DNA from: Jiangella anatolica
Lineage (GTDB): Bacteria; Actinomycetota; Actinomycetes; Jiangellales; Jiangellaceae
Assembly (NCBI RefSeq): GCF_003236295.1
Contig: NZ_POTW01000024.1
Span: forward strand, 1-64,000
DNA length: 64,000 bases
Direction of reading: 5' to 3'
Position numbers and translations under genes: made by a program
Part shown: positions 39,421 to 54,304 of the stretch, piece after piece
Layout: each line of letters begins with the position of its first letter
How positions within the stretch are numbered: the stretch's first letter is position 1
The notes under the pieces: generated by a model
Seen by the model: only the letters and a program-made list of their open reading frames with translations
What the model was told of the DNA's origin: nothing
Database searches by the model: none

Positions 39421-40254
39421 CTAGTCCTCGTCGGCGACCAGGACCTTCACGTCGGCCTCCTCCAACGCCCGGGCCAGCCCGGGCGACGGCGGGGCGTCGG
39501 TGATGAGGTAGTCCGCCCGGGCCAGCTCGGCCACCCGGGCGAACAGCCGGCGGTCGAACTTGGAGGAGTCGGCGAGCACCGCGACCGACGAGGCGCGGTC
39601 CATCATCTCGGCCATCATCGTGGCCTCGCCGAGGTTGCTGGTGGTGTACCCGCTGGCGGCGTCGACCGCGCCGACGGCGATGAGCGCGAGGTCGCACTGG
39701 ATCTGCAGGTCGTCGCCGGGCGACATCCGCTGGAAGCTGACCGGCCCGACGGTGGCCTGCGCGCTGAACCGGACCTGGCCGCCGAACACGTAGAGGTCGC
39801 GGACGACGTCGGGGGCGATCTCGGCCGGTAGCCGCAGGCTGTTCGTCGCGATCGTGAGGTCGCGCTGGTCGCGCAGGTGTCGCACGACCGCGAGCGTGGT
39901 GGTGCCGGCGTTGACGATGATCGCCGCGCCGTCGGTCACCAGCCCCGCGGCCAGCGCGCCGATCTGCTCCTTCGCCGACGCCTGCATGCGCATCCGCACG
40001 TCCAGGCCGGTGTCGGGCCGGGGGACGGCGGACAGCCCGACCGCTCCGCCGTGCGTGCGGATCAGCACGCCCTCAGAGTCGAGCTGGTCCAGGTCGCGCC
40101 GGATGGTGTCGAGGGAGACGTCGAAACGCTCGGCCAGCTGCGCGACCGTGACCTGCCCGACCTCGCTGACGTATGAGGCCAGTGCGGCCTTCCGTCCGGC
40201 GGGGAGTCGGCGGGGCTGGCCGGTCGCGTCGCCAGCGGGTGTCTGCGCGGCCAT
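39421..40254 (-). CDS. DeoR-family sugar-operon repressor
   Basis: 277-aa regulator. The N-terminal DeoR helix-turn-helix is TVAQLAERFDVSLDTIRRDL (about residues 36-55) after RKAALASYVSEVG. The C-terminal DeoRC domain binds a sugar phosphate, with VIVNAGTTTLAVVRHL and DLALIAVGAVDAASGYT. It is divergent from the sugar ABC/aldolase/kinase operon and most likely represses it, releasing on a phosphorylated sugar intermediate, as is typical of the family. The region between the two starts holds a promoter and a four-fold repeat. Confidence 0.92.
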   Translation of the reverse strand: MAAQTPAGDATGQPRRLPAGRKAALASYVSEVGQVTVAQLAERFDVSLDTIRRDLDQLDSEGVLIRTHGGAVGLSAVPRPDTGLDVRMRMQASAKEQIGALAAGLVTDGAAIIVNAGTTTLAVVRHLRDQRDLTIATNSLRLPAEIAPDVVRDLYVFGGQVRFSAQATVGPVSFQRMSPGDDLQIQCDLALIAVGAVDAASGYTTSNLGEATMMAEMMDRASSVAVLADSSKFDRRLFARVAELARADYLITDAPPSPGLARALEEADVKVLVADED

Positions 40255-44412: not shown

Positions 44413-45639
44413 ATGACCGAACGTCTGGTGCTGGGCCTGGGCGGTACCGTCGACTACGAGATCGCCTGGGACGTCGCGACCCTCGAACGGCTGGTCGCCG
44501 AGCACGGCATCCGCGCGGCCGAGCTGTCGACGTCGGTCCCGATCGTCAGCGAGCGGTCGCTGCTGGTGACGCTGCTGGCGTTCGTCCGCGACGGCCTGGG
44601 CGGCGAGCGGTTCGTCGCCTCGTCGGAGATCGTCGCGGGTCTGGCGGCACAGTTCGACACCCGGGTCACGCTGGGCGGGACCTGCGTGCGGGCGGCGCTC
44701 GGGCTGGCCGCGGCCGGCGTCGGCAGCACGGTGCACCTGGTCAGCATCGACGACCACGTGCGCCGGCTGCTGCCGCCGTCGGTCTCGTACCTCTGCAGCG
44801 CCGACGCCGACTCGCTGGACCCGCACCTGATCGTCCAGTACCCGGCCGGCGCCCGGATCCGGTCCGGCGACATCGACCTCACCGCCCCGCACGCGAACCG
44901 GCTCATCTACGTGCACGATCCGCCGAACCGGGAGCTGCGGCTGCACCCGGGCCTGGGCGACGCGCTGGCCGCGGCGGACGTGTTCCTGGTGTCCGGGCTG
45001 AACTCCATCCAGTCACCTGCCGTGCTGGCCGAGCGGCTGGACTCGCTGCGGGCGGCGGTCGCGCGGCTGCCGGAGGGTGCGCTGACGTTCTACGAGGACG
45101 CCGGCTACCACGTGCCGGAGATCGCGGCGGCCGCGCGGGCCGGCGTGCTGGAACTGGCCGACGTGTACTCGATGAACGAGGACGAGCTGGGCGAGCGGCT
45201 CGGGGCCGCTCCCGATCTGCTGGATCCGCCGGCGGTGGTGGCGGCGTTGCGGGCCCTGGTGGAACTGGTGCCGGCGCCCGTCGTCGTGGTGCACACGAAG
45301 TACTGGTCGGTGGCGCTGGGCTCTGCGGCGGGCCGGCTCGAGGCGGGCCGGCTCGAGGCGGGCCGGTTCGAGGCGGCGCTGCGCGGTGGGATCGCGCTGG
45401 CCAGCGCCCGTTACCTGAGCGGCGACGGGCTGACGGCGGACGCCGTCGACGCGGTGGCGTCGCTGCCGGTACACGCGGGCGGCTCCGCGGTGGTGACGGC
45501 CGTGTCGACGGCGTTCGGTGCGGGTGGGGTGGGGGTGGCGGCGTACGTGCTGGACACGGCGACGCCGACCAGCATCGGCCTCGGCGACACGTTCGTCGGG
45601 GGCTTCCTCGCCGCCGTCAGCGGTGCCGGAGGACGCTGA
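44413..45639 (+). CDS. ADP-dependent phosphofructokinase/glucokinase family protein
   Basis: 408-aa ribokinase-fold sugar kinase of the ADP-GK/ADP-PFK family. Support: start LGLGGTVDYEIAWD, the Mg-binding NxxE-type segment DVYSMNEDELGERL, the HTKYWSVALG strand and the catalytic SIGLGDTFVGG with the aspartate base. In the usual HxE position it has FYED, so the glutamate is kept and the histidine is not. It follows the aldolase by 13 bases, so it should phosphorylate the sugar (phosphate) before cleavage. The 3' end overlaps the convergent methyltransferase gene by 23 bases. The phosphoryl donor (ADP or ATP) cannot be proven by reading. Confidence 0.82.
   Translation: MTERLVLGLGGTVDYEIAWDVATLERLVAEHGIRAAELSTSVPIVSERSLLVTLLAFVRDGLGGERFVASSEIVAGLAAQFDTRVTLGGTCVRAALGLAAAGVGSTVHLVSIDDHVRRLLPPSVSYLCSADADSLDPHLIVQYPAGARIRSGDIDLTAPHANRLIYVHDPPNRELRLHPGLGDALAAADVFLVSGLNSIQSPAVLAERLDSLRAAVARLPEGALTFYEDAGYHVPEIAAAARAGVLELADVYSMNEDELGERLGAAPDLLDPPAVVAALRALVELVPAPVVVVHTKYWSVALGSAAGRLEAGRLEAGRFEAALRGGIALASARYLSGDGLTADAVDAVASLPVHAGGSAVVTAVSTAFGAGGVGVAAYVLDTATPTSIGLGDTFVGGFLAAVSGAGGR
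45328..45372. repeat. Three in-frame 15-bp repeats in the kinase gene
   Basis: GCGGGCCGGCTCGAG occurs twice exactly (45328-45342, 45343-45357) and once with one change (45358-45372). It encodes AGRLE-AGRLE-AGRFE in a loop after the HTKYWSVALG strand. It looks like a recent slippage expansion that the fold tolerates. Confidence 0.85.
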
Positions 45640-46201
45640 CGGCGAAGTCGGCGTCGTCGTGCCAGGCGCGCAGGTCCCAGGTGGCGAACCGGTGCTCCAG
45701 TCGTAGCCCGGCGTCCTCGGCGTAGCGGTCGAAGTCGGCCAGCGCCAGATGCCGGTTCACGTGGAAGCCGACGATCACGAAGCCGTCCGGCACGACGTGC
45801 CCGCCCCCCCGCCGCAGTACGTCGGTCTCCGTGCCCGGCGCGACGAACACCATGACGTTCCCCGCCATGACCGCCGCGTCGAACGTCTCGCCGAGATCGA
45901 GCTCGGACAGGTCGCCGACGAGGTAGCGCGGGCCCGGATAGTCCGTCCGCGCCGCCTCGATCAGCGCCGGGTCGACGTCGACGCCGACGACGGTGTGGCC
46001 GCGCTCGTGCAGCGCGCCGGCGATACGGCCGGTGCCACAGCCGGCGTCGAGGACCCGAGCGCCGCGCGGCAGCATCGCGTCGACCAACCGCGCCTCACCG
46101 GTGAGGTCGGCGCCGTCAGCCGCGAGCTTGCGGAACCGCTCGATGTACCACTGCGAGTGGCCCTCTTTGGTCTCGGACAACCAGCGCGTCGGCTTCGCCA
46201 C
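45617..46201 (-). CDS. Class I SAM-dependent methyltransferase
   Basis: 194-aa enzyme with SAM motif I ARVLDAGCGTGRIAGAL (about residues 48-64), acidic motif II in VVGVDVDPALIEAA, GDLSELDLGETFDAAVM and the post-core strand FVIVGFHVNRHL. The N-terminus HSQWYIERFRKLA is common in small ubiE-like methyltransferases. The substrate is unknown. It starts with GTG 12 bases after the sialidase-like gene and may be the last gene of that operon. Its end runs 23 bases into the convergent kinase gene. Confidence 0.85.
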   Translation of the reverse strand: MAKPTRWLSETKEGHSQWYIERFRKLAADGADLTGEARLVDAMLPRGARVLDAGCGTGRIAGALHERGHTVVGVDVDPALIEAARTDYPGPRYLVGDLSELDLGETFDAAVMAGNVMVFVAPGTETDVLRRGGGHVVPDGFVIVGFHVNRHLALADFDRYAEDAGLRLEHRFATWDLRAWHDDADFAVSVLRHR

Positions 46202-46213
46202 CCTGCCATCACA

Positions 46214-47839
46214 TCACGCGAGCACCAGCCCGACGAGGTCGGGCGCGAACCGCACCCCCGTCGAGTCGACGTGCTTGTCGACGACGGTGAAGCGGACGGT
46301 GTGCCGGCCGCGGGCCAGCTCCACCCGGCCGACCAGCTCGGTCCGGAACGAGCGCACCGACACCGTCGACGTGTCGATGGGTCCGCCCAGCCGCGAGCCG
46401 TCCACGTCGATGACGACCACGCCGCCGTTGGCCAGGTGCCGGAACCGCGCGTAGAGGTCGTACCGGCCGCCGCGGGTGATCTCGATCGCCGCCTCGAGGT
46501 ACTGGCCGTAGTCGGTGGCGCGCACCTCGACGACGGCGCCGCCGCTGGCCATGGCGTCCGCCGCCGGGACCACGGTGACGCCGGGTGTCGCGGTCAGCGG
46601 CACGTCCTCGACCTCGAACGACAGCCGGGTCGCCGGGCCGCGGCGGCCGGTGTCGGCGCCCGACGTCAGCCAGGCGAGGTCGAACGTCGCGAACACGATG
46701 TCGCGGGAGAAGCTGGTGGTGACGCCAGGAACGTGCTCGCGTCCGTACAGGACGCCGATCCGCCCGTCCGGCAGCGCCACCGTGTCCGAGTACGACGCCG
46801 GCCCCTCGGTCAGGACCCGGCTGTACGGCCAGCTCATCCCCTCGTCGTAGGAGATCGAGACGGTCATGTTCCGCCGCGTCGGCGAGTCGGTGCGCGAGAA
46901 CACCAGCCGGCTGTCCTCCCGCTCGCCGAGCCCCGTCAGCCGGGCGATGCCGGTGTCGATCGCGTTGACCGGCCGCGCCGCGGCGTCCAGCACCGGCGGC
47001 GACCAGGTGGCGCCGCGGTCGGTGCTCACCGACGTGATCCGCGGATGCGTGCCGCCCGACGCATACCGGCCGAGCACCACCAGCGTGCTGTCCGGCCGCT
47101 CGATCAGCCGGGCCTCGTTCAGCGGGTACGCGCCGTCCAGCGGGACGCCGCCACCGGCCTGCCAGGTGGCGCCGCCGTCGTCGCTGTGGATGACGGTGAC
47201 GCCGTAGCGCCGCTCGGCGACCGGGAAAGCGATCGCGCGACGGTGCCAGACCTGCACCATCAGCCGGCCGTCGGACAGCTGCAGGCCGTGGCCGGGGCCG
47301 GGCATGTGCAGCGTCTGCCCGTTCGGGTCGCCGTCGAACAGCTGCGTGAGCTCCTGCGGCGACGACCACGTCTCGCCGTCGTCGTCGCTGGTCACGACGT
47401 ACAACCGGGAGCTGTCCGGCGAGCCGCCGGTGTTGCCGGCGTCGCGGAAGCACTCCGCGTGGAACAGGAAGATCCGCCCCGTCGACCGGTCGACCAGCGG
47501 CGTCGGGTTGACGAAGGACTGCACGCCGTCGGAGCGGCGCACGTAGCGCAGCGGCTCCCAGGTGCGGCCGCCGTCGCGGCTGCGGCGCACGGCGAGGTGG
47601 TGCGGGTCGGCGTCGTGCGGGGTGAGGCGGGCCTCGGCGAAGGCCAGCACCGAGCCGGCCACCGTCGTCGTCAGGCCGAAGACGTGGAAGACGGCCAGGC
47701 CGTCGTCGCCGGCGCGGAACACCAGCGACTCCTCGAACTCGCCCTCGGCGGCGCCGGTGGCGGCGAACGACGGCGTGGCCGAGGCGAGCACGCCGGCGGC
47801 GGCGGTGCCGAGGACGAGGGTGCGACGGCTGAGTTCCAC
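46214..47839 (-). CDS. Tat-exported sialidase-family protein with C-terminal binding-like domain
   Basis: 541-aa exported protein. The twin-arginine signal LSRRTLVLGTAAAGVLASA is at residues 3-21. The catalytic-type six-blade propeller carries five Asp boxes: SRDGGRTW, SDDDGETW, SDDGGATW, STDRGATW and SYDEGMSW. From about residue 400 a beta-rich module (GGRYDLYARFRHLANGG to HTVRFTVVDKHVDS) resembles carbohydrate-binding or golvesin-like domains. It may cleave sialic acids or a related glycoside; true sialidase activity needs the arginine triad, which I cannot verify. GTG start with AAGGAG upstream. It follows the NanA/DapA-like gene, which fits acid-sugar release and cleavage. Confidence 0.85.
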   Translation of the reverse strand: MELSRRTLVLGTAAAGVLASATPSFAATGAAEGEFEESLVFRAGDDGLAVFHVFGLTTTVAGSVLAFAEARLTPHDADPHHLAVRRSRDGGRTWEPLRYVRRSDGVQSFVNPTPLVDRSTGRIFLFHAECFRDAGNTGGSPDSSRLYVVTSDDDGETWSSPQELTQLFDGDPNGQTLHMPGPGHGLQLSDGRLMVQVWHRRAIAFPVAERRYGVTVIHSDDGGATWQAGGGVPLDGAYPLNEARLIERPDSTLVVLGRYASGGTHPRITSVSTDRGATWSPPVLDAAARPVNAIDTGIARLTGLGEREDSRLVFSRTDSPTRRNMTVSISYDEGMSWPYSRVLTEGPASYSDTVALPDGRIGVLYGREHVPGVTTSFSRDIVFATFDLAWLTSGADTGRRGPATRLSFEVEDVPLTATPGVTVVPAADAMASGGAVVEVRATDYGQYLEAAIEITRGGRYDLYARFRHLANGGVVVIDVDGSRLGGPIDTSTVSVRSFRTELVGRVELARGRHTVRFTVVDKHVDSTGVRFAPDLVGLVLA

Positions 47840-47853
47840 GAGATCTCCTTCGA

Positions 47854-48768
47854 TCAGCGGGCGGTGACCAGGTGCGCGTCGAGCGGGCGGAGCAGGTCCA
47901 GCAGGCCGGCCCGCTCGTCCGGCGTCGCCGGCACGAACGGGGCGGCGACGTGCGGAGGGCAGAGGCCGCGGGCGGCGAGGACGGCCTTGACGGCGGGCAC
48001 GCCGCGGCGGACGGTGTGCAGCGCGAGCACGCGATCGGCGATCTCCTGGGCCGCGTCGGCGTCGGACGTCCGGCCGGACCGGAACGCGTCGTACAGCTCG
48101 GCGCAGAGCACCGGCGCCAGGTTGGCGATGCCCGGCACGATGCCGTCGGCGCCCGCCTCGAGCCCGGCGACCAGCTGCGTCTCCGAGCCCTGGCTGACGC
48201 CGACGTCCGGGCGCCGGCGGGCCGCGGCGACGATCCGGCCGAACAGGGCGAGGTCGCCGGAGCTGTCCTTGATGCCCACGACGTGCGGCATCGCCAGCAC
48301 CTCGTCGAGCACCGCGGGCGTCATCGGCACGCTGTAGCTCGGCACGTTGTACGCGACCACCGGCACGCCGAGCCCGGCGAAGGCGGCGAAATGCGCAACC
48401 ACCTCGTCGTCGCGGTGCCGGAAGTAGATCGGCGGGCTGACGACGACGGCGTCCGGCTCGGCCAGGCGGACGGCGTCGGCCCGCTGCAGCGCCTCGGCGG
48501 TGCCGGCGGCCGTGACGTTGACCAGCACCGGCCCGTCGCCGGTCCGCTCCCGCCAGTGCGCCGCGACGCCGGCCGCGAACTCCGTCATCGACGCCTGGGT
48601 CAGCAGCGGGCCCTCCCCGTTGCTGCCGAACAGCATGAGGCTGCGCGCGCCGGCCGCGGCCAGCGCGTCCAGCAGGTCGTACGCCGCCGCGGCGGACGGC
48701 TCGCCCGGCGCGCTCATCGGCGTCACCAGCGGGACCATCACCCCGCTGAGGAGGTCTCGGCCGTTCAT
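47854..48768 (-). CDS. Dihydrodipicolinate synthase/N-acetylneuraminate lyase family protein
   Basis: 304-aa (beta/alpha)8 class I aldolase. It has LFGSNGEGPLLTQ in the place of the GTTGE loop, catalytic tyrosine in VVAYNVPSYSVP and the Schiff-base lysine in VVGIKDSSGDLALF. The family includes DapA, NanA and sugar-acid aldolases. The setting between a sialidase-like gene and an oxidoreductase favours a catabolic sugar-acid lyase over lysine synthesis, by inference. ATG 48768 lies one base after the upstream stop (TGACATG), so translation is coupled. Confidence 0.9.
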   Translation of the reverse strand: MNGRDLLSGVMVPLVTPMSAPGEPSAAAAYDLLDALAAAGARSLMLFGSNGEGPLLTQASMTEFAAGVAAHWRERTGDGPVLVNVTAAGTAEALQRADAVRLAEPDAVVVSPPIYFRHRDDEVVAHFAAFAGLGVPVVAYNVPSYSVPMTPAVLDEVLAMPHVVGIKDSSGDLALFGRIVAAARRRPDVGVSQGSETQLVAGLEAGADGIVPGIANLAPVLCAELYDAFRSGRTSDADAAQEIADRVLALHTVRRGVPAVKAVLAARGLCPPHVAAPFVPATPDERAGLLDLLRPLDAHLVTAR

Positions 48769-48769
48769 G

Positions 48770-50383
48770 TCAGTACCCCTTGATCTCCGGCCAGGCCAGC
48801 TCGACGCCGTCGGCGGCCAGCTCGTCCTGGAAGGCGCCCAGCAGGGCGCCGGACTCGTGCACCTGGCCCGGCTCCAGCCCGCCGGCCAGGCAGTGCGCCG
48901 CCAGCGCGCCGGCGACCTCGCCGACGTTCCACTCGACGGGGTGCAGCCGGTAGCAGCCGTTGGTGATGTGCGTCGTGCCGATGTTCTTGCCGGCCGGCAG
49001 CAGGTTGCGCACCCGCTGCGGCAGCAGCGCGCCGAGCGGGATCTGGAACGGCGAGCTGGCGACGTCGATATAGGTGTCGCCGCCGGTCGACGGGTGCAGG
49101 TCGATGCGGTACATCCCGATGCCGACGGAGTCCGGGTACGCGACCGCGCCGGCCGAGCCGCGGACCGCCAGCGACAGGTCCTGCTCGACCACCGTGCGGC
49201 GGGCCCTGATGCGGCGCGACTCGCGGATGTACGGCGCCTTCGCCAGCCCGTCGGCCGTGCCCATGACGTCGCCGCGCAGCCGTAGCCCCCGCCAGCCGGT
49301 GCCGCCGTCGGGCCGCGGCGCCTCGGTCTGCAGCCAGTACAGCATCGACATGGACAGCTCGCGGGCGCCGGCGAGGTGCTTGTCGCGCTCCTCGTCGCTG
49401 ACGCCGATCAGCGACCCGGGCACGTAGTCGATCATCGGCCAGTTGACGACGGTGACGTCGCTCTCGGCGAACCCGGGCCGGAACACCGACCGGGCGACGA
49501 TGCGGCGGAAGGCCCACAGCTCGCGGTCGCCGGGGTCCTTGGACTGGTCGGCGACGACCGGGCCGGTGTCGCCGTTGGGCACGAAGGCGCGCTCGAACGG
49601 CTCGAGTGTGCGCGGGTCCGGCGCACGCAGGCTGATCAGCGGGTTCGGCCACTTCGGCGGCTGGTACTCGCGCCAGGCGGCGTACCCGGCCGGCCGGTCG
49701 ATCGTGTGGTCCTCGCCGGCGCGGTGGTCGACGGCGAACACCCAGGAGAACGCCTGCAGGTTGTCCGGCTGCGCCTGGTCCGGCGCGCTCGGCTCGCCGG
49801 TGTCGTGCCGCGACTCGAACCCGGTGACGTGCTCGGTGCCGGTGAGCGGCAGCAGGTCGCCCAACTCGGTCGCGTCCAGGAGGTAGGGGGCACGGACCTC
49901 CAGCCTGGTGCCGTCGGGGCCCTCGACCACGACGGCGGTGACGCGGTCGCCGTCGACGCTCGCGGCCACCGGGCGGTGCCGGTACAGGACGCGCAGCCGG
50001 CCGGCCGCGATCCACGGCGCCACCATCGCCTCCAGCACGGCGGCGCCGACCCGCGGCTCATGGCACAGCCGGCTGACCTTCCCCTGGCCGGGGTTGAGGT
50101 CGCGTGCGTCGCGGGCCCAGCCGGCCAGCGGGTACCAGGCGCGGTAGTAGGCGCGGATGTTCTCGCGCAGCTCGCGGTAGCTGCGGGTGCTGCCGAACTG
50201 CTCGATCCACGCGTGCTCGTCCGGCGGGACGCCCTGGCTGGTCAGCTGGCCGCCGATCCAGTCGGTCTCCTCGGTGAGCAGGACGGACCTGCCTCGTCGC
50301 AGTGCCGCGAGGGCCGCTGCGACGCCGCCGAGCCCGCCGCCCACCACGAGGATGTCGGCCGTCCTCGCCGTCTCGCTGCTCAC
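48770..50383 (-). CDS. FAD-dependent oxidoreductase
   Basis: 537-aa flavoprotein of the PF12831 type. The N-terminal dinucleotide motif VVGGGLGGVAAALAAL is followed by SVLLTEETDWIGGQLTSQGV, a typical signature of this family. Later segments include PYLLDATELGDLLPLTG and the C-terminal flavin loop PAGKNIGTTHITNGCYRLHP. Such proteins occur in glycan and sugar-acid loci, but substrates are mostly unknown. The GTG at 50383 overlaps the stop of the glycosidase gene (GTGA) and has AGAGGGA upstream. The open frame extends further upstream only as a shadow. Confidence 0.88.
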   Translation of the reverse strand: MSSETARTADILVVGGGLGGVAAALAALRRGRSVLLTEETDWIGGQLTSQGVPPDEHAWIEQFGSTRSYRELRENIRAYYRAWYPLAGWARDARDLNPGQGKVSRLCHEPRVGAAVLEAMVAPWIAAGRLRVLYRHRPVAASVDGDRVTAVVVEGPDGTRLEVRAPYLLDATELGDLLPLTGTEHVTGFESRHDTGEPSAPDQAQPDNLQAFSWVFAVDHRAGEDHTIDRPAGYAAWREYQPPKWPNPLISLRAPDPRTLEPFERAFVPNGDTGPVVADQSKDPGDRELWAFRRIVARSVFRPGFAESDVTVVNWPMIDYVPGSLIGVSDEERDKHLAGARELSMSMLYWLQTEAPRPDGGTGWRGLRLRGDVMGTADGLAKAPYIRESRRIRARRTVVEQDLSLAVRGSAGAVAYPDSVGIGMYRIDLHPSTGGDTYIDVASSPFQIPLGALLPQRVRNLLPAGKNIGTTHITNGCYRLHPVEWNVGEVAGALAAHCLAGGLEPGQVHESGALLGAFQDELAADGVELAWPEIKGY

Positions 50384-52350
50384 GCGTGGGATCCCTCTCT
50401 GACGAACTGGACATGCCGGGTGTCGCCGTCGACGGTGACGGCTTGCGGCCCGCCCTCGATGTCGGTGATGCGCGCGTCGCCGGTGCCGGTGACGGTGGCG
50501 CTGACCTCGTCCGGCGTGCGCCGGTACGCGCTCACGACGACGCCCGGCGCCGCGTCGATCAGGACGGCGCCGTCGAGCGTCACGACCAGCCGGTCGCCCG
50601 CGCGCACCGTCAGCCGGCCGTCGCCGAGCGGCAGGCCGGCCAGCTCGGCCGGCTCGCCGGGATGGGCGAACCGCCAGCCGTCCGGCCGGGCCTCGGCCAG
50701 CTCGCCGAACGCGAGGTGCGCCAGCAGCCCGCCCCACGCCATCAGCCCGTCCGACCGCTGCTGGAATCCGGTGAGGTCCTCACCGTCGAAGGCCGGGTAG
50801 TTCTCCCGGACCGCGCTGTGCGCCTCCCACTCGGTGAGGAACAGCTCCAGCAGCGCCGTGCTGACGGCGCGGCTGTGGTCACGCAGGTCGTAGCGGCGCA
50901 GCCCCTGGACCGCGAGGTAGGCCATCGGCGCCCAGATCCGGCCACGCCAGTAGGTGGCGGCGAAGCCGGGGTCGTTCCGCGCGACGCTGGGCAGCGGCCG
51001 GTCGCCGCCGAGCACGCCGGGCTGGAGCAGGACGTCCGCGACGTGCCGTGCCGTGGCCGGGTCGGGGAAGCCGCCGAGCAGCGGGTAGAGCAGCGTCGGC
51101 GAGACGTGCGGGTCGTGGCTGCCGTCCGCGCGCAGGTTCCGGTAGCCCTGCGCGGCCTCGTCCCAGAACAGCGCCGCGGCCCGCGCACGAGTGCGCTCGG
51201 CCGCTGCGGTGAGCCGGGCCGCCGTAGCGGCGTCGCCGAGCAGCTCGGCCATCATGGCCAGGGCCTCGGCGTCGGCAATGTGTAGCGCGTTCAGGCCGGC
51301 GTCGGCGAGGTCCATCGTGTGCGTCGCCGGGTCGTACGCGGCCTCGTCGTACATCGGCGAGTCGTCCAGCCCGGACTCCCGCTTCGCGCGGTCCAGCGTC
51401 GCCGACTCCGGGTCGCCCTCGATCGGGTCCGAGCCCCACGCCAGCAAGCCGTGCGGCCCGACGCGATGCGCCGGCCACCAGTCGTGCCAGGCCAGCAGCG
51501 CGTCGAAGGTCTCCTCCAGCAGCGCCCGGTCGCGGGTCCGGTCGGAGAGCCCGCCGGACAGGTACGCCGACAGCACCGTCAGCGCGCCGACCGGCGGCTG
51601 CGACCGGTCCCAGGTGGTGCCGCGCTCGTCGCTGACCCGGTTCGGGATCATCCCGGCCGCGTCGGCGAACGGCAGGATCTGGCCGAGGATGCCGCGCGCG
51701 TAGTCGCGGTCGACGAGGCTCGCGACCAGCCCGGTGAAGAACGTGTCCCACGCGTGCAGCGCCCAGCTGCCGTAGAAGCCCTGCCGCTCGGCGGAGACGA
51801 AGTCGCGCGACGTCGGGGTGAGGACGCGGCCCAGGTCCGGCGCGTGGATGGTGTTCCAGGTGACGGCGCGGGTCAGCGCGTCGGCGGCGTCGCGGTACCG
51901 GCCTCCGGACCTCGGGCGGACGGCGTCGGCGGCGGCCCGGCGCCGCTCGATCACTTCGCCGACATCGTGCACCGTCGCGGCCGAGTTGCGCGGGGCGATG
52001 AGGAGGTCGTCGCCGGCACGGTCCAGCCGCCAGCCGTCCTTCCCCGGCCAGTCGACGACGACCGTGCCCGCGGACGCGCCCCGGACGTACAGCTCGTCGC
52101 CCGGCCCGCCGGCCATCGTCAGCCGCAGCTCGACCCCGTCCGCCTCGACCGTGACCTCGGCGAACGAGCCGTCGACGGTGTGGTGGCCGAGCCGGACCAG
52201 GCCGCGCCGCCAGGTGAACCCGTCGAACACCGGCCGGCCGGCGGCGTCCAGGAGACCGAACCGGACCGCGAGCCCGGACGGCAGGTGCGTCATGCCGGTG
52301 TGGGTGCGGACGTCCCAGGTGCTCCAGCCGCGTGGTGCGGGGGCCGTCAT
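50380..52350 (-). CDS. MGH1-like glycoside hydrolase (GH63-type (alpha/alpha)6 barrel)
   Basis: 656-aa protein without a signal peptide. Residues 1-150 form a beta-sandwich N-domain. The (alpha/alpha)6 catalytic domain follows with FYGSWALHAWDTFFTGLVAS, GMIPNRVSDERGTTWDRSQP and YWRGRIWAPMAYLAVQGLRR, the order seen in GH63 and mannosylglycerate-hydrolase-like enzymes. A small C-terminal beta domain ends it. It probably hydrolyses an imported oligosaccharide or glycoside in the cytoplasm. It is the first gene of the five-gene operon, with GGAGGGAG before the ATG. Confidence 0.85.
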   Translation of the reverse strand: MTAPAPRGWSTWDVRTHTGMTHLPSGLAVRFGLLDAAGRPVFDGFTWRRGLVRLGHHTVDGSFAEVTVEADGVELRLTMAGGPGDELYVRGASAGTVVVDWPGKDGWRLDRAGDDLLIAPRNSAATVHDVGEVIERRRAAADAVRPRSGGRYRDAADALTRAVTWNTIHAPDLGRVLTPTSRDFVSAERQGFYGSWALHAWDTFFTGLVASLVDRDYARGILGQILPFADAAGMIPNRVSDERGTTWDRSQPPVGALTVLSAYLSGGLSDRTRDRALLEETFDALLAWHDWWPAHRVGPHGLLAWGSDPIEGDPESATLDRAKRESGLDDSPMYDEAAYDPATHTMDLADAGLNALHIADAEALAMMAELLGDAATAARLTAAAERTRARAAALFWDEAAQGYRNLRADGSHDPHVSPTLLYPLLGGFPDPATARHVADVLLQPGVLGGDRPLPSVARNDPGFAATYWRGRIWAPMAYLAVQGLRRYDLRDHSRAVSTALLELFLTEWEAHSAVRENYPAFDGEDLTGFQQRSDGLMAWGGLLAHLAFGELAEARPDGWRFAHPGEPAELAGLPLGDGRLTVRAGDRLVVTLDGAVLIDAAPGVVVSAYRRTPDEVSATVTGTGDARITDIEGGPQAVTVDGDTRHVQFVREGSHA

Positions 52351-52377
52351 GCGCTCGCCGATCTCCCTCCGCGGGCA

Positions 52378-52391
52378 CTAATACGTATTAG
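52378..52391. promoter_or_regulatory. Perfect 14-bp palindrome CTAATACGTATTAG, candidate operator
   Basis: Even palindrome with a central CpG in a locally AT-rich patch between the glycosidase start and its promoter, just downstream of the predicted transcription start. The size and central CG resemble LacI- or GntR-family operators. No gene of either family is in the window; the nearby regulator is AraC-type. Confidence 0.75.
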
Positions 52392-52404
52392 GACAACGGA
52401 CTCG

Positions 52405-52434
52405 ACTGTAACGGCGGCGTTTCCGGCTCGTCAA
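52405..52434 (-). promoter_or_regulatory. Sigma-70-type promoter of the glycan operon
   Basis: On the minus strand, TTGACG (52434-52429), 18-base spacer, TACAGT (52410-52405). Transcription would start near 52398, placing the palindrome at about +7 to +20 and leaving a leader of some 48 bases before the ATG at 52350. Confidence 0.7.
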
Positions 52435-52548
52435 GGGATGACAGGATTCGCCATCATGCTGCACAGTGACGCCATGGCCGCCCGGGGTGCGCCGCGAGCA
52501 GGATGCGAGACGTCGGCCTATTCGCACCGAACCGCCTGGAGACCCGTC

Positions 52549-53418
52549 ATGACCGTCGCGCCCATCGCACCGCCGTCGACCCTGGAGAGCCGCTACGAGC
52601 AGGATGGATTCGTCATCCTGAAGGACGTGCTCAGCCGCGCCGAGCTCGACGCGCTGCTGGCCGAGACCGCGCGGATCTGCCGTGGCGAGCTCGGCGCGAT
52701 CGAGGGGGCGGTCGCGTCGTCGCCGGACGAGAGCGACGACGAGGTGATCCGCCGGTTCCTCTGCGTCCACTATCCGCACAAGCTGTCGTCGCTGATGCTG
52801 GACACGATGCGCCATCCCGCGATCGTCGACGGCCTGACCCGGGTCATCGGGCCGAACGTCAAGGCGATGCAGTCGATGCTGTTCGTCAAGGCCGAGGGGA
52901 AGCCGGGCCAGGCCTGGCACCAGGACGAGATGTTCATCCCGACCCGGGACCGCTCGCTCACCGCCGCGTGGATCGCACTCGACGACGCGACCGTCGAGAA
53001 CGGCTGCCTCTGGGTGCTGCCCGGCTCGCACCGCGGCGGCGTCATCTACCCCAACCGCGAGCACGAGGACCCGCGCTACGACTGCACCGTCGAGTCCTAC
53101 GACTTCCCCTGGACCGACGACGACGCGGTGCCGGTCGAGCTGAGCGCCGGATCGGTGCTGCTGTTCAACGGGTACCTGCTGCACAAGTCGCTGCCGAACA
53201 CCGGGAAGCACGGCTACCGGCGCGCGCTGGCCAACCACTACATGAGCGCGGAGTCGCTGCTGCCGTGGGCGCCGCCGCACGAAGGGCAGACCATGGCGCA
53301 GGCCGACTTCCGCGACGTCGTGCTGGTGGCCGGCCGCGACCCGTACGCCTACAAGGGGATCGAGCAGCTGCGCACGCCGCGGATCCGGCCGGATCGCGAC
53401 GGTGGCTGTGACCGCTGA
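52549..53418 (+). CDS. Phytanoyl-CoA dioxygenase (PhyH) family Fe(II)/2-oxoglutarate enzyme
   Basis: 289-aa double-stranded beta-helix oxygenase. The metal triad is readable: His124 and Asp126 in AWHQDEMF and distal His212 in GYLLHKSLPNT, with the 2-oxoglutarate arginine in YRRALANHY. It starts YEQDGFVILKDVLSRAELD, typical of PhyH proteins. Bacterial members hydroxylate diverse small molecules, including sugars and amino acids. It is divergent from the glycan operon, and its 3' end overlaps the AraC gene by 17 bases, so the two are coupled. Confidence 0.9.
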   Translation: MTVAPIAPPSTLESRYEQDGFVILKDVLSRAELDALLAETARICRGELGAIEGAVASSPDESDDEVIRRFLCVHYPHKLSSLMLDTMRHPAIVDGLTRVIGPNVKAMQSMLFVKAEGKPGQAWHQDEMFIPTRDRSLTAAWIALDDATVENGCLWVLPGSHRGGVIYPNREHEDPRYDCTVESYDFPWTDDDAVPVELSAGSVLLFNGYLLHKSLPNTGKHGYRRALANHYMSAESLLPWAPPHEGQTMAQADFRDVVLVAGRDPYAYKGIEQLRTPRIRPDRDGGCDR

Positions 53419-54304
53419 GGTCGCTGTGGCGGGGTTCGGGGTGGGGCTGGCGCCCCGCCTCGGCCCCGCCGTCGCGGACTACCCGCCGGGCTCGACGTTC
53501 GGCCCGCGCGACGCCCGCACGTACGAGTTCGTCTGGCTGCTGTCCGGCAGCGCGACCTGGCGCTGGGACGACCTGCAGGTACCGCTGACACCGGGGACGT
53601 TGCTGCTGGTCCGGCCGGGGATGCGCGACGCGTTCCGCTGGGATCCGCGGCGGCCGACCCGGCACGCGTACGTGCACTTCACGCTGGCCGGGCCCCCGTT
53701 CGACGATGCGGCGTGGCCGGTCGTGCGGGAGCTGGGCGGCCGGCCGGACCCGATGGGCGCGCTGTGCCAGTACCTGCTCTGGCTCGGCGCCGCGTGCCCG
53801 CCCGGCTGGCACGACCGGGCGGCCGAGACGCTGCGGCTGCTGGTGCTGACGTTCCTCGCGCCGCCTGCCGAGCCGGCCGGCTCGGGCGCCGGCGACGGAG
53901 GGCTGCCGGCGCCGGTGGTCGCCGCGATGTCCGCCGTACGGACCGCATGGGCCGACGGTGTCGCCCGGCCGGTTCCGCTGGAGCGGCTGGCCGCGGCCGC
54001 CGGCGTGTCCGTCTCGACGCTGTGCCGGGCGTTCCGGCGCCGCTTCGGGGTCGGGCCGGTCGCCGCGCTGGAGCGGCTCCGGCTGGCCCGGTCCGAGCCG
54101 CTGCTGTGGATGAGCAACCTGTCGCTGCAGGCCATCGCGGTGCAGTGCGGGTTCGCCGACGCCTACCACTTCTCCCGCCGGTTCCGCGCCGTCTACGGCG
54201 TCGCGCCGAGCGCGTTCCGGGCCACCGCGCCGCAGGCCGCTCCCCCGTCGCCGCTGGCCGCGTCGGGGCTGGCCGCGCTGGAGCAGCTGACCCCGGCGCC
54301 GTGA
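53402..54304 (+). CDS. AraC-family transcriptional regulator
   Basis: 300-aa regulator with an N-terminal cupin-like ligand domain (TYEFVWLLSGSATWRWDDLQ, then PGTLLLVRPGMRDAFRWDP) and a C-terminal double helix-turn-helix: LERLAAAAGVSVSTLCRAF and LSLQAIAVQCGFADAYHFSR followed by RFRAVYGVAPSAFR. It usually activates in response to a sugar. The GTG at 53402 lies inside the end of the dioxygenase gene; a second GTG two codons later is possible. It plausibly controls this locus. Confidence 0.9.
   Translation: MAVTAEVAVAGFGVGLAPRLGPAVADYPPGSTFGPRDARTYEFVWLLSGSATWRWDDLQVPLTPGTLLLVRPGMRDAFRWDPRRPTRHAYVHFTLAGPPFDDAAWPVVRELGGRPDPMGALCQYLLWLGAACPPGWHDRAAETLRLLVLTFLAPPAEPAGSGAGDGGLPAPVVAAMSAVRTAWADGVARPVPLERLAAAAGVSVSTLCRAFRRRFGVGPVAALERLRLARSEPLLWMSNLSLQAIAVQCGFADAYHFSRRFRAVYGVAPSAFRATAPQAAPPSPLAASGLAALEQLTPAP

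Follow-up and report, generated by a model that had tools for sequence, protein, structure and literature searches.

A candidate LacI-type operator without its local repressor gene in Jiangella anatolica, probably read in trans by a paralogous repressor

The window analysed here, i.e., the whole stretch of 64,000 nucleotides at positions 1 to 64,000 of contig NZ_POTW01000024.1 of Jiangella anatolica, carries on its minus strand an operon composed of genes for a glycoside hydrolase (GH), an FAD-dependent oxidoreductase, a protein of the DHDPS family, a BNR sialidase-like protein and probably also a methyltransferase-domain protein. The features to which we refer are the following:

39421-40254: DeoR-family gene, a second local regulator besides the AraC-type gene
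45617..46201, minus strand: methyltransferase-domain protein (PF13649), probable last gene of the operon
46214..47839, minus strand: BNR-repeat sialidase-like protein (PF13088)
47854..48768, minus strand: DHDPS/N-acetylneuraminate-lyase superfamily protein (PF00701)
48770..50383, minus strand: FAD-dependent oxidoreductase (PF12831), start codon GTG
50380..52350, minus strand: glycoside hydrolase, MGH1-like/GH63-type (PF22422, E 1.8e-38), first gene of the operon
52378..52391, no strand: candidate LacI-type operator CTAATACGTATTAG, a perfect 14-bp palindrome, counterpart of the operator at the orthologous promoter in 11/11 congeners
52405..52410, minus strand: -10 hexamer TACAGT; a TA...T hexamer lies 18 nt past TTGACG in 12/12 genomes
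52429..52434, minus strand: -35 hexamer TTGACG, present 43-46 nt ahead of the operator in 12/12 genomes
52549..53418, plus strand: divergent PhyH-family dioxygenase (PF05721)
53402..54304, plus strand: AraC-type regulator adjoining the PhyH gene (PF12833)

The initial annotation of this DNA had pointed to a perfect 14-bp palindrome after a TTGACG-N18-TACAGT promoter on the minus strand, and both elements lie where it placed them: TTGACG at 52434-52429 is followed by an 18-nt spacer, by TACAGT at 52410-52405 and by the palindrome CTAATACGTATTAG. This is the sole promoter-like site within 52300-52560 (shuffles: mean 0.0, sd 0.2). The palindrome is located downstream of it as proposed, at about +8 to +21 instead of +7 to +20 if transcription is assumed to start 7 nt past the -10 box, and 27 nt separate it from the ATG of the GH gene at 52350. 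Throughout the window it is the single match at up to three mismatches, where shuffled sequences lead one to expect 0.06 matches and gave at least one in 5 of 100 cases. It is an even palindrome with CG at its centre, the form expected of a LacI operator; the sites described below for the genus were found with a pattern already containing this central CG and hence do not test the centre independently.

As regards local regulators, the AraC-type gene was said to be the only one. It is present, and it occurs together with PhyH in 9/11 fetched congener cluster loci, but the DeoR-family gene lies in the window as well. A stretch at 52439-52480 containing GATGGCGAATC seems to go with the divergent PhyH gene and is possibly the site of the AraC-type protein; similar stretches (85-93%) are found in 8/11 congeners, and in one of them (G008) the stretch lies beside PhyH and not beside lacI.

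Conservation upstream of orthologous glycosidase genes had been named as a check on the palindrome, and it is borne out in a set of 12 genomes made up of the window genome and 11 congeners, among which G005 is Jiangella asiatica and G009 is Jiangella muralis. The orthologous cluster, with GH orthologues that are 79-87% identical, is preceded by the same kind of promoter and by the operator in 11/11 congeners. In all 12 genomes TTGACG is followed by the 18-nt spacer and a hexamer starting with TA and ending with T, and the distance from TTGACG to the operator amounts to 44-46 nt in the congeners and 43 nt in the window. The operator thus follows TTGACG-N18-TAnnnT in every genome, a position that would permit repression by binding. 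In the alignment of the 12 operators 10/14 columns are invariant while the flanks average 0.52-0.62 identity per column, with the eight central columns alike partly by construction because the sites were located by ATACGTAT.

What could not be seen from the window alone is that the relatives carry a local repressor gene at this place and that the window genome does not. In all 11 congeners the operator is followed by a LacI-family gene, here called LacI-A, and then by the GH, FAD oxidoreductase, DHDPS and BNR genes. Seven of the 11 have genes for a permease, a family-5-type binding protein and two ATPases between LacI-A and GH, recognised by means of the copies in G010. A product similar to the window methyltransferase-domain protein sits after the BNR gene in G010, G011 and G005. 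In the window, operator and GH gene are adjacent, with neither LacI-A nor the Dpp-type transporter between them. The window site is also the only perfect one: 0/11 LacI-A-proximal congener sites are perfect over 14 bp. In J. asiatica the match to DHDPS (L057, 12166-12414, reversed orientation) covers only residues 128-210, and the gene thus looks degraded there.

Among the LacI hits of the window assembly (7.0 Mb, 256 contigs; E <= 1e-40) no LacI-A orthologue was found. The five hits are 100, 68, 42, 41 and 36% identical to a second LacI-family protein, LacI-B, against which LacI-A genes score 60-63%. A LacI-A gene hidden in an assembly gap is unlikely, and the simplest reading of the sequences is a loss of lacI and transporter in the window lineage. 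The transporter genes between the LacI-A position and GH are missing in G005, G006, G007 and G011 as well as in the window. Genome G005 retains a 49-residue permease remnant, and in G011 the stretch that separates LacI-A from GH (L065, 8760-8945) consists of pieces of 40, 60 and 47 bases with 90-92% identity to separated parts of the transporter segment of G001, namely the beginning of the permease gene, its end and the GH-side end of the segment. Judging by these pieces, the G011 gap is a scar of transporter loss. The transporter of the LacI-A cluster is absent in 5/8 genomes that have a LacI-B locus and in 0/4 without one (Fisher P = 0.08, kinship ignored). Seven congeners have both LacI-A and LacI-B, and LacI-B is consequently not specific to the genome without LacI-A.

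The promoter allele of the window is discordant. Over the 35 nt from TTGACG (window 52400-52434, compared with L055-L065) it is identical at 31/35 positions to the distant G005, at 28/35 to G003 and G007 and at 25/35 to G008, but at only 17-18/35 to G009, G004 and G010, the neighbours of the window in a tree built from the FAD oxidoreductase gene alone (support 0.71). Recombination may have exchanged this promoter segment, perhaps along with the loss of lacI.

A scan of the genome for a second site near a LacI or GntR gene, as the initial annotation had recommended, leads directly to LacI-B. The core AATACGTATT occurs exactly at only two places in the assembly and at one more with one mismatch (reversed control 0); the 14-mer with two mismatches gives 2 matches versus 1 for its reversed control. 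The second exact site, CCAATACGTATTAA, differs from the window site at 2/14 positions and lies on contig C44, with 8 nt between its end and the ATG of LacI-B. LacI-B has the LacI and Peripla_BP Pfam domains, and for LacI-B as for one LacI-A (G011) PF00356, PF13377 and PF00532 all score above the cut-offs. Behind LacI-B follow two permease genes, a family-5 binding protein gene and an oligopeptide-type ATPase gene, together for a Dpp-type transporter, and a gene for an FAD oxidoreductase 73% identical to that of the window operon. LacI-B is the best candidate reader of the window site, being the only LacI gene of the assembly with a AATACGTATT site ahead at up to one mismatch. The third near-site of the assembly (C221:36827, AATACGTACT, one mismatch) is an imperfect palindrome close to where the coding sequence for a pyruvate phosphate dikinase begins and was set aside; we read it as a coding coincidence.

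Across the genus, TAATACGTATTA at up to one mismatch gave 36 sites distributed over 12/12 genomes, and the reversed pattern gave none. Directly before LacI genes there are 24 of them: 12 before LacI-A (11 genomes, with two in G002), 8 before LacI-B and 4 before other LacI genes (G004 C3, G006 C38, G007 C1 and G007 C8). The remainder comprises 8 sites before a large BNR protein, the window site, and 3 sites before other genes (G002 C249, G006 C25 and G007 C5); the genes behind the G002 C249 site include a glycosidase 35% identical to that of the window. The motif precedes LacI-B in 8/8 and LacI-A in 11/11 cases, from which autoregulation is predicted by sequence criterion. For the large BNR protein (loci L104-L111) the operator stands ahead in 8/8 genomes having a close orthologue, as the exact 14-mer in 4/8; its copy in G008 counts 1719 aa with BNR, laminin-G, golvesin-C, fn3 and DUF6351 tannase-like domains. 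A search of the window genome at E <= 1e-60 found no close orthologue of it.

The motif also extends beyond Jiangella. Of 393 genomes sampled across the class, 18 contain the exact 12-mer, versus 2 for the reversed control. Ten class-level sites lie outside the genus, 7 before a LacI gene, 1 before an orthologue of the BNR protein and 2 with nothing recognised, and the sites in G324 and G344 showed no match nearby to LacI-B or to any window protein used as query. The site had been described as LacI/GntR-like, and the LacI half of this description holds, with 24/36 genus and 7/10 class-level sites preceding LacI genes; an origin from a GntR-type system (FadR/HutC) was set aside since the linked regulators found are LacI-type. 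An FAD oxidoreductase relative stands behind LacI in 5/7 short class-level loci outside the genus.

In 8/10 named loci (L134-L143) a palindrome-like site with a TACGTA core is located 22-59 nt before the start of the matched LacI, i.e., in Actinophytocola xinjiangensis (where it reads CTGATACGTATTAA), a metagenomic actinomycete, Streptomyces sp. YIM 130001, Nonomuraea basaltis, Jiangella asiatica, Streptomyces sp. GESEQ-35, S. humi and Promicromonospora sp. AC04. The 14-mer of S. humi is identical to that of the window. The congener order of operator, LacI, GH, FAD oxidoreductase and DHDPS recurs in S. humi, N. basaltis and Streptomyces sp. GESEQ-35, and PhyH is divergent in each of these three loci. 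Among L134-L153, the loci examined out of 80, such a site was not found upstream at L134 and L141 (74 and 62% identical), L145, L147 and L149-L153. Nor was a TACGTA core found at four GH relatives from another genus of the family (G017, G019, G020 and G021; the match and up to 1.5 kb on each side), and the glycosidase-linked conservation thus stops at the genus there. In G021 the exact 12-mer stands ahead of the orthologue of the BNR protein.

The relation between repressor and site can be followed in the recognition helices. The helix of the window LacI-B equals that of LacI-A in 9/9 residues in 11/11 comparisons, versus 7/9 for a further paralogue, LacI-C. Over the DNA-binding domain and hinge LacI-B shares 46-49/59 residues with LacI-A and 42-44/59 with LacI-C, while its core is about 65-67% identical to that of LacI-C and only about 56-60% to that of LacI-A. 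Because the core is closer to LacI-C, the helix identity with LacI-A does not merely reflect overall kinship. LacI-A and LacI-B helices (SQATVSL or SQGTVSL) pair with ATACGTAT in mostly A/T flanks, whereas the LacI-C helix SQSTVSV pairs with GATACGTATC in 6/6 cases, its own operators being TCGATACGTATCGG (5) or TAGATACGTATCGG (1). As far as sequences tell, helix and operator change together between LacI-A/B and LacI-C. The helix does not fix the site by itself, since the C18 LacI of the window genome shares the LacI-A/B pattern and yet C18-type genes (L214-L218) have the perfect palindrome GTTATGCGCATAAC ahead in 5/5 genomes, despite a SQATVSLV helix; parts outside the helix matter as well. 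The helix pattern consequently failed as a unique marker of the reader, with two genes of the window genome matching it.

In our view the palindrome is very probably a LacI-family operator, its assignment to LacI being close to certain on comparative grounds, and the sister repressor LacI-B has probably taken it over. In the ancestral state the operator would have been positioned between the promoter and the local LacI-A gene. Sitting just past the transcription start, LacI-A would keep lacI and the operon genes after it repressed until released by a ligand. In the window lineage LacI-A and the Dpp-type transporter would have gone, leaving the operator directly ahead of the GH gene. LacI-B, with the same recognition helix and the same operator core, would most likely read the window site in trans, and the C44 operon and the window GH operon would form one regulon. 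We infer here that absence means loss, that control takes the form of repression, that LacI-B binds the site and that a ligand is shared; with only about 56-60% of the core in common, the ligands of LacI-A and LacI-B may differ. The remote repressor and regulon suggested by the initial annotation are thus supported by the second site and by the conserved promoter and operator, with LacI-B as the putative binding protein.

We consider it likely that the operator was orphaned by loss of the local LacI-A and that LacI-B, with a transporter still in its operon, at present reads it in trans. The main rival is that the palindrome is a relic: with LacI-A gone nothing would bind, the operon would be constitutive and the palindrome would not yet have decayed. 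LacI-A is indeed not found in the assembly, and the nearest congener differs at just 13% of the fourfold sites of the FAD oxidoreductase gene, by which we estimate that about one change at most is expected in 14 neutral bases on the branch. An unused 14-mer could thus have stayed intact, and the persistence of the operator says little about its use. The site is perfect, however, in contrast to all LacI-A-proximal congener sites, and the genome still encodes a paralogue whose helix is identical and whose own gene is preceded by the same operator core, for which reasons we regard a relic as rather unlikely.

The choice of LacI-B as reader also has to be weighed against other regulators. LacI-C (C180), whose gene precedes one of BNR type, shares 68% identity with LacI-B, and the C18 protein has the helix pattern of LacI-A/B, but both have conserved operators of their own that differ from the window site (6/6 and 5/5, respectively, as given above). 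The C18 LacI was set aside as reader on its operator GTTATGCGCATAAC, and it is very improbable that either of the two reads the window site. Use of the palindrome by the AraC-type neighbour or another local regulator is less probable still, to the point of being hardly credible. The AraC-type gene is only 1 kb away and accompanies PhyH in most congener loci; nevertheless, four congeners (G003, G005, G007 and G008) keep operator and lacI together with PhyH about 2.7-2.9 kb off, from which it follows that AraC is probably not the reader. The operator is likewise with lacI in G011, for which a search of the fetched 18 kb at E <= 1e-25 gave no PhyH and no AraC, and the same motif stands ahead of LacI genes at many other loci. 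AraC was set aside on this synteny.

It is an evenly balanced question whether regulator and transporter were shed because the paralogous locus supplied both, so that the orphan operator was captured and two once-separate regulons merged. Through the comparison an isolated palindrome becomes the mark of a candidate LacI regulon, present in several genera of actinomycetes, with operator, regulator and FAD oxidoreductase and in some also the glycosidase, DHDPS and BNR protein, and the motif can be used to find further members. The window offers a natural case of the fate of an operator once its local repressor gene vanishes from a genome that still encodes a paralogue reading DNA with the same helix. 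More generally, where a site has no regulator beside it, the regulator may be missing from that genome only, and a comparison with relatives shows this quickly.

The kind of system is already known, while a regulon with this motif was not found in print. The literature searched, which did not include RegPrecise-type databases and most subscription papers, yielded no description of the motif or regulon and no mention of the motif as a LacI site; a text match to TAATACGTATTA concerns haloarchaeal vectors, and the matches that combine ATACGTAT with LacI and Streptomyces seem to deal with other subjects. According to Ravcheev et al. (2014; PMC4052901), local LacI-family regulators are mostly autoregulated and have motifs mostly of 16-22 nt with a central CG, the palindrome being near the start codon. 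The system described here resembles them in its even palindrome with central CG, the predicted autoregulation of the LacI gene, the sugar-type genes downstream and the location of the site near the start codon. It differs in the length of the motif, 12-14 nt as far as followed, and in that the window site lacks a local regulator. In the same source, GntR and IdnR of E. coli are closest-paralogue LacI-family repressors, of which GntR can recognise IdnR sites. Paralogous repressors, homologous target genes and a shared recognition of sites, here deduced from helix and operator, are common to both cases; whereas in E. coli both paralogues are present and cross-recognition is experimental, in J. 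anatolica one of the two is absent from the assembly and cross-recognition is predicted.
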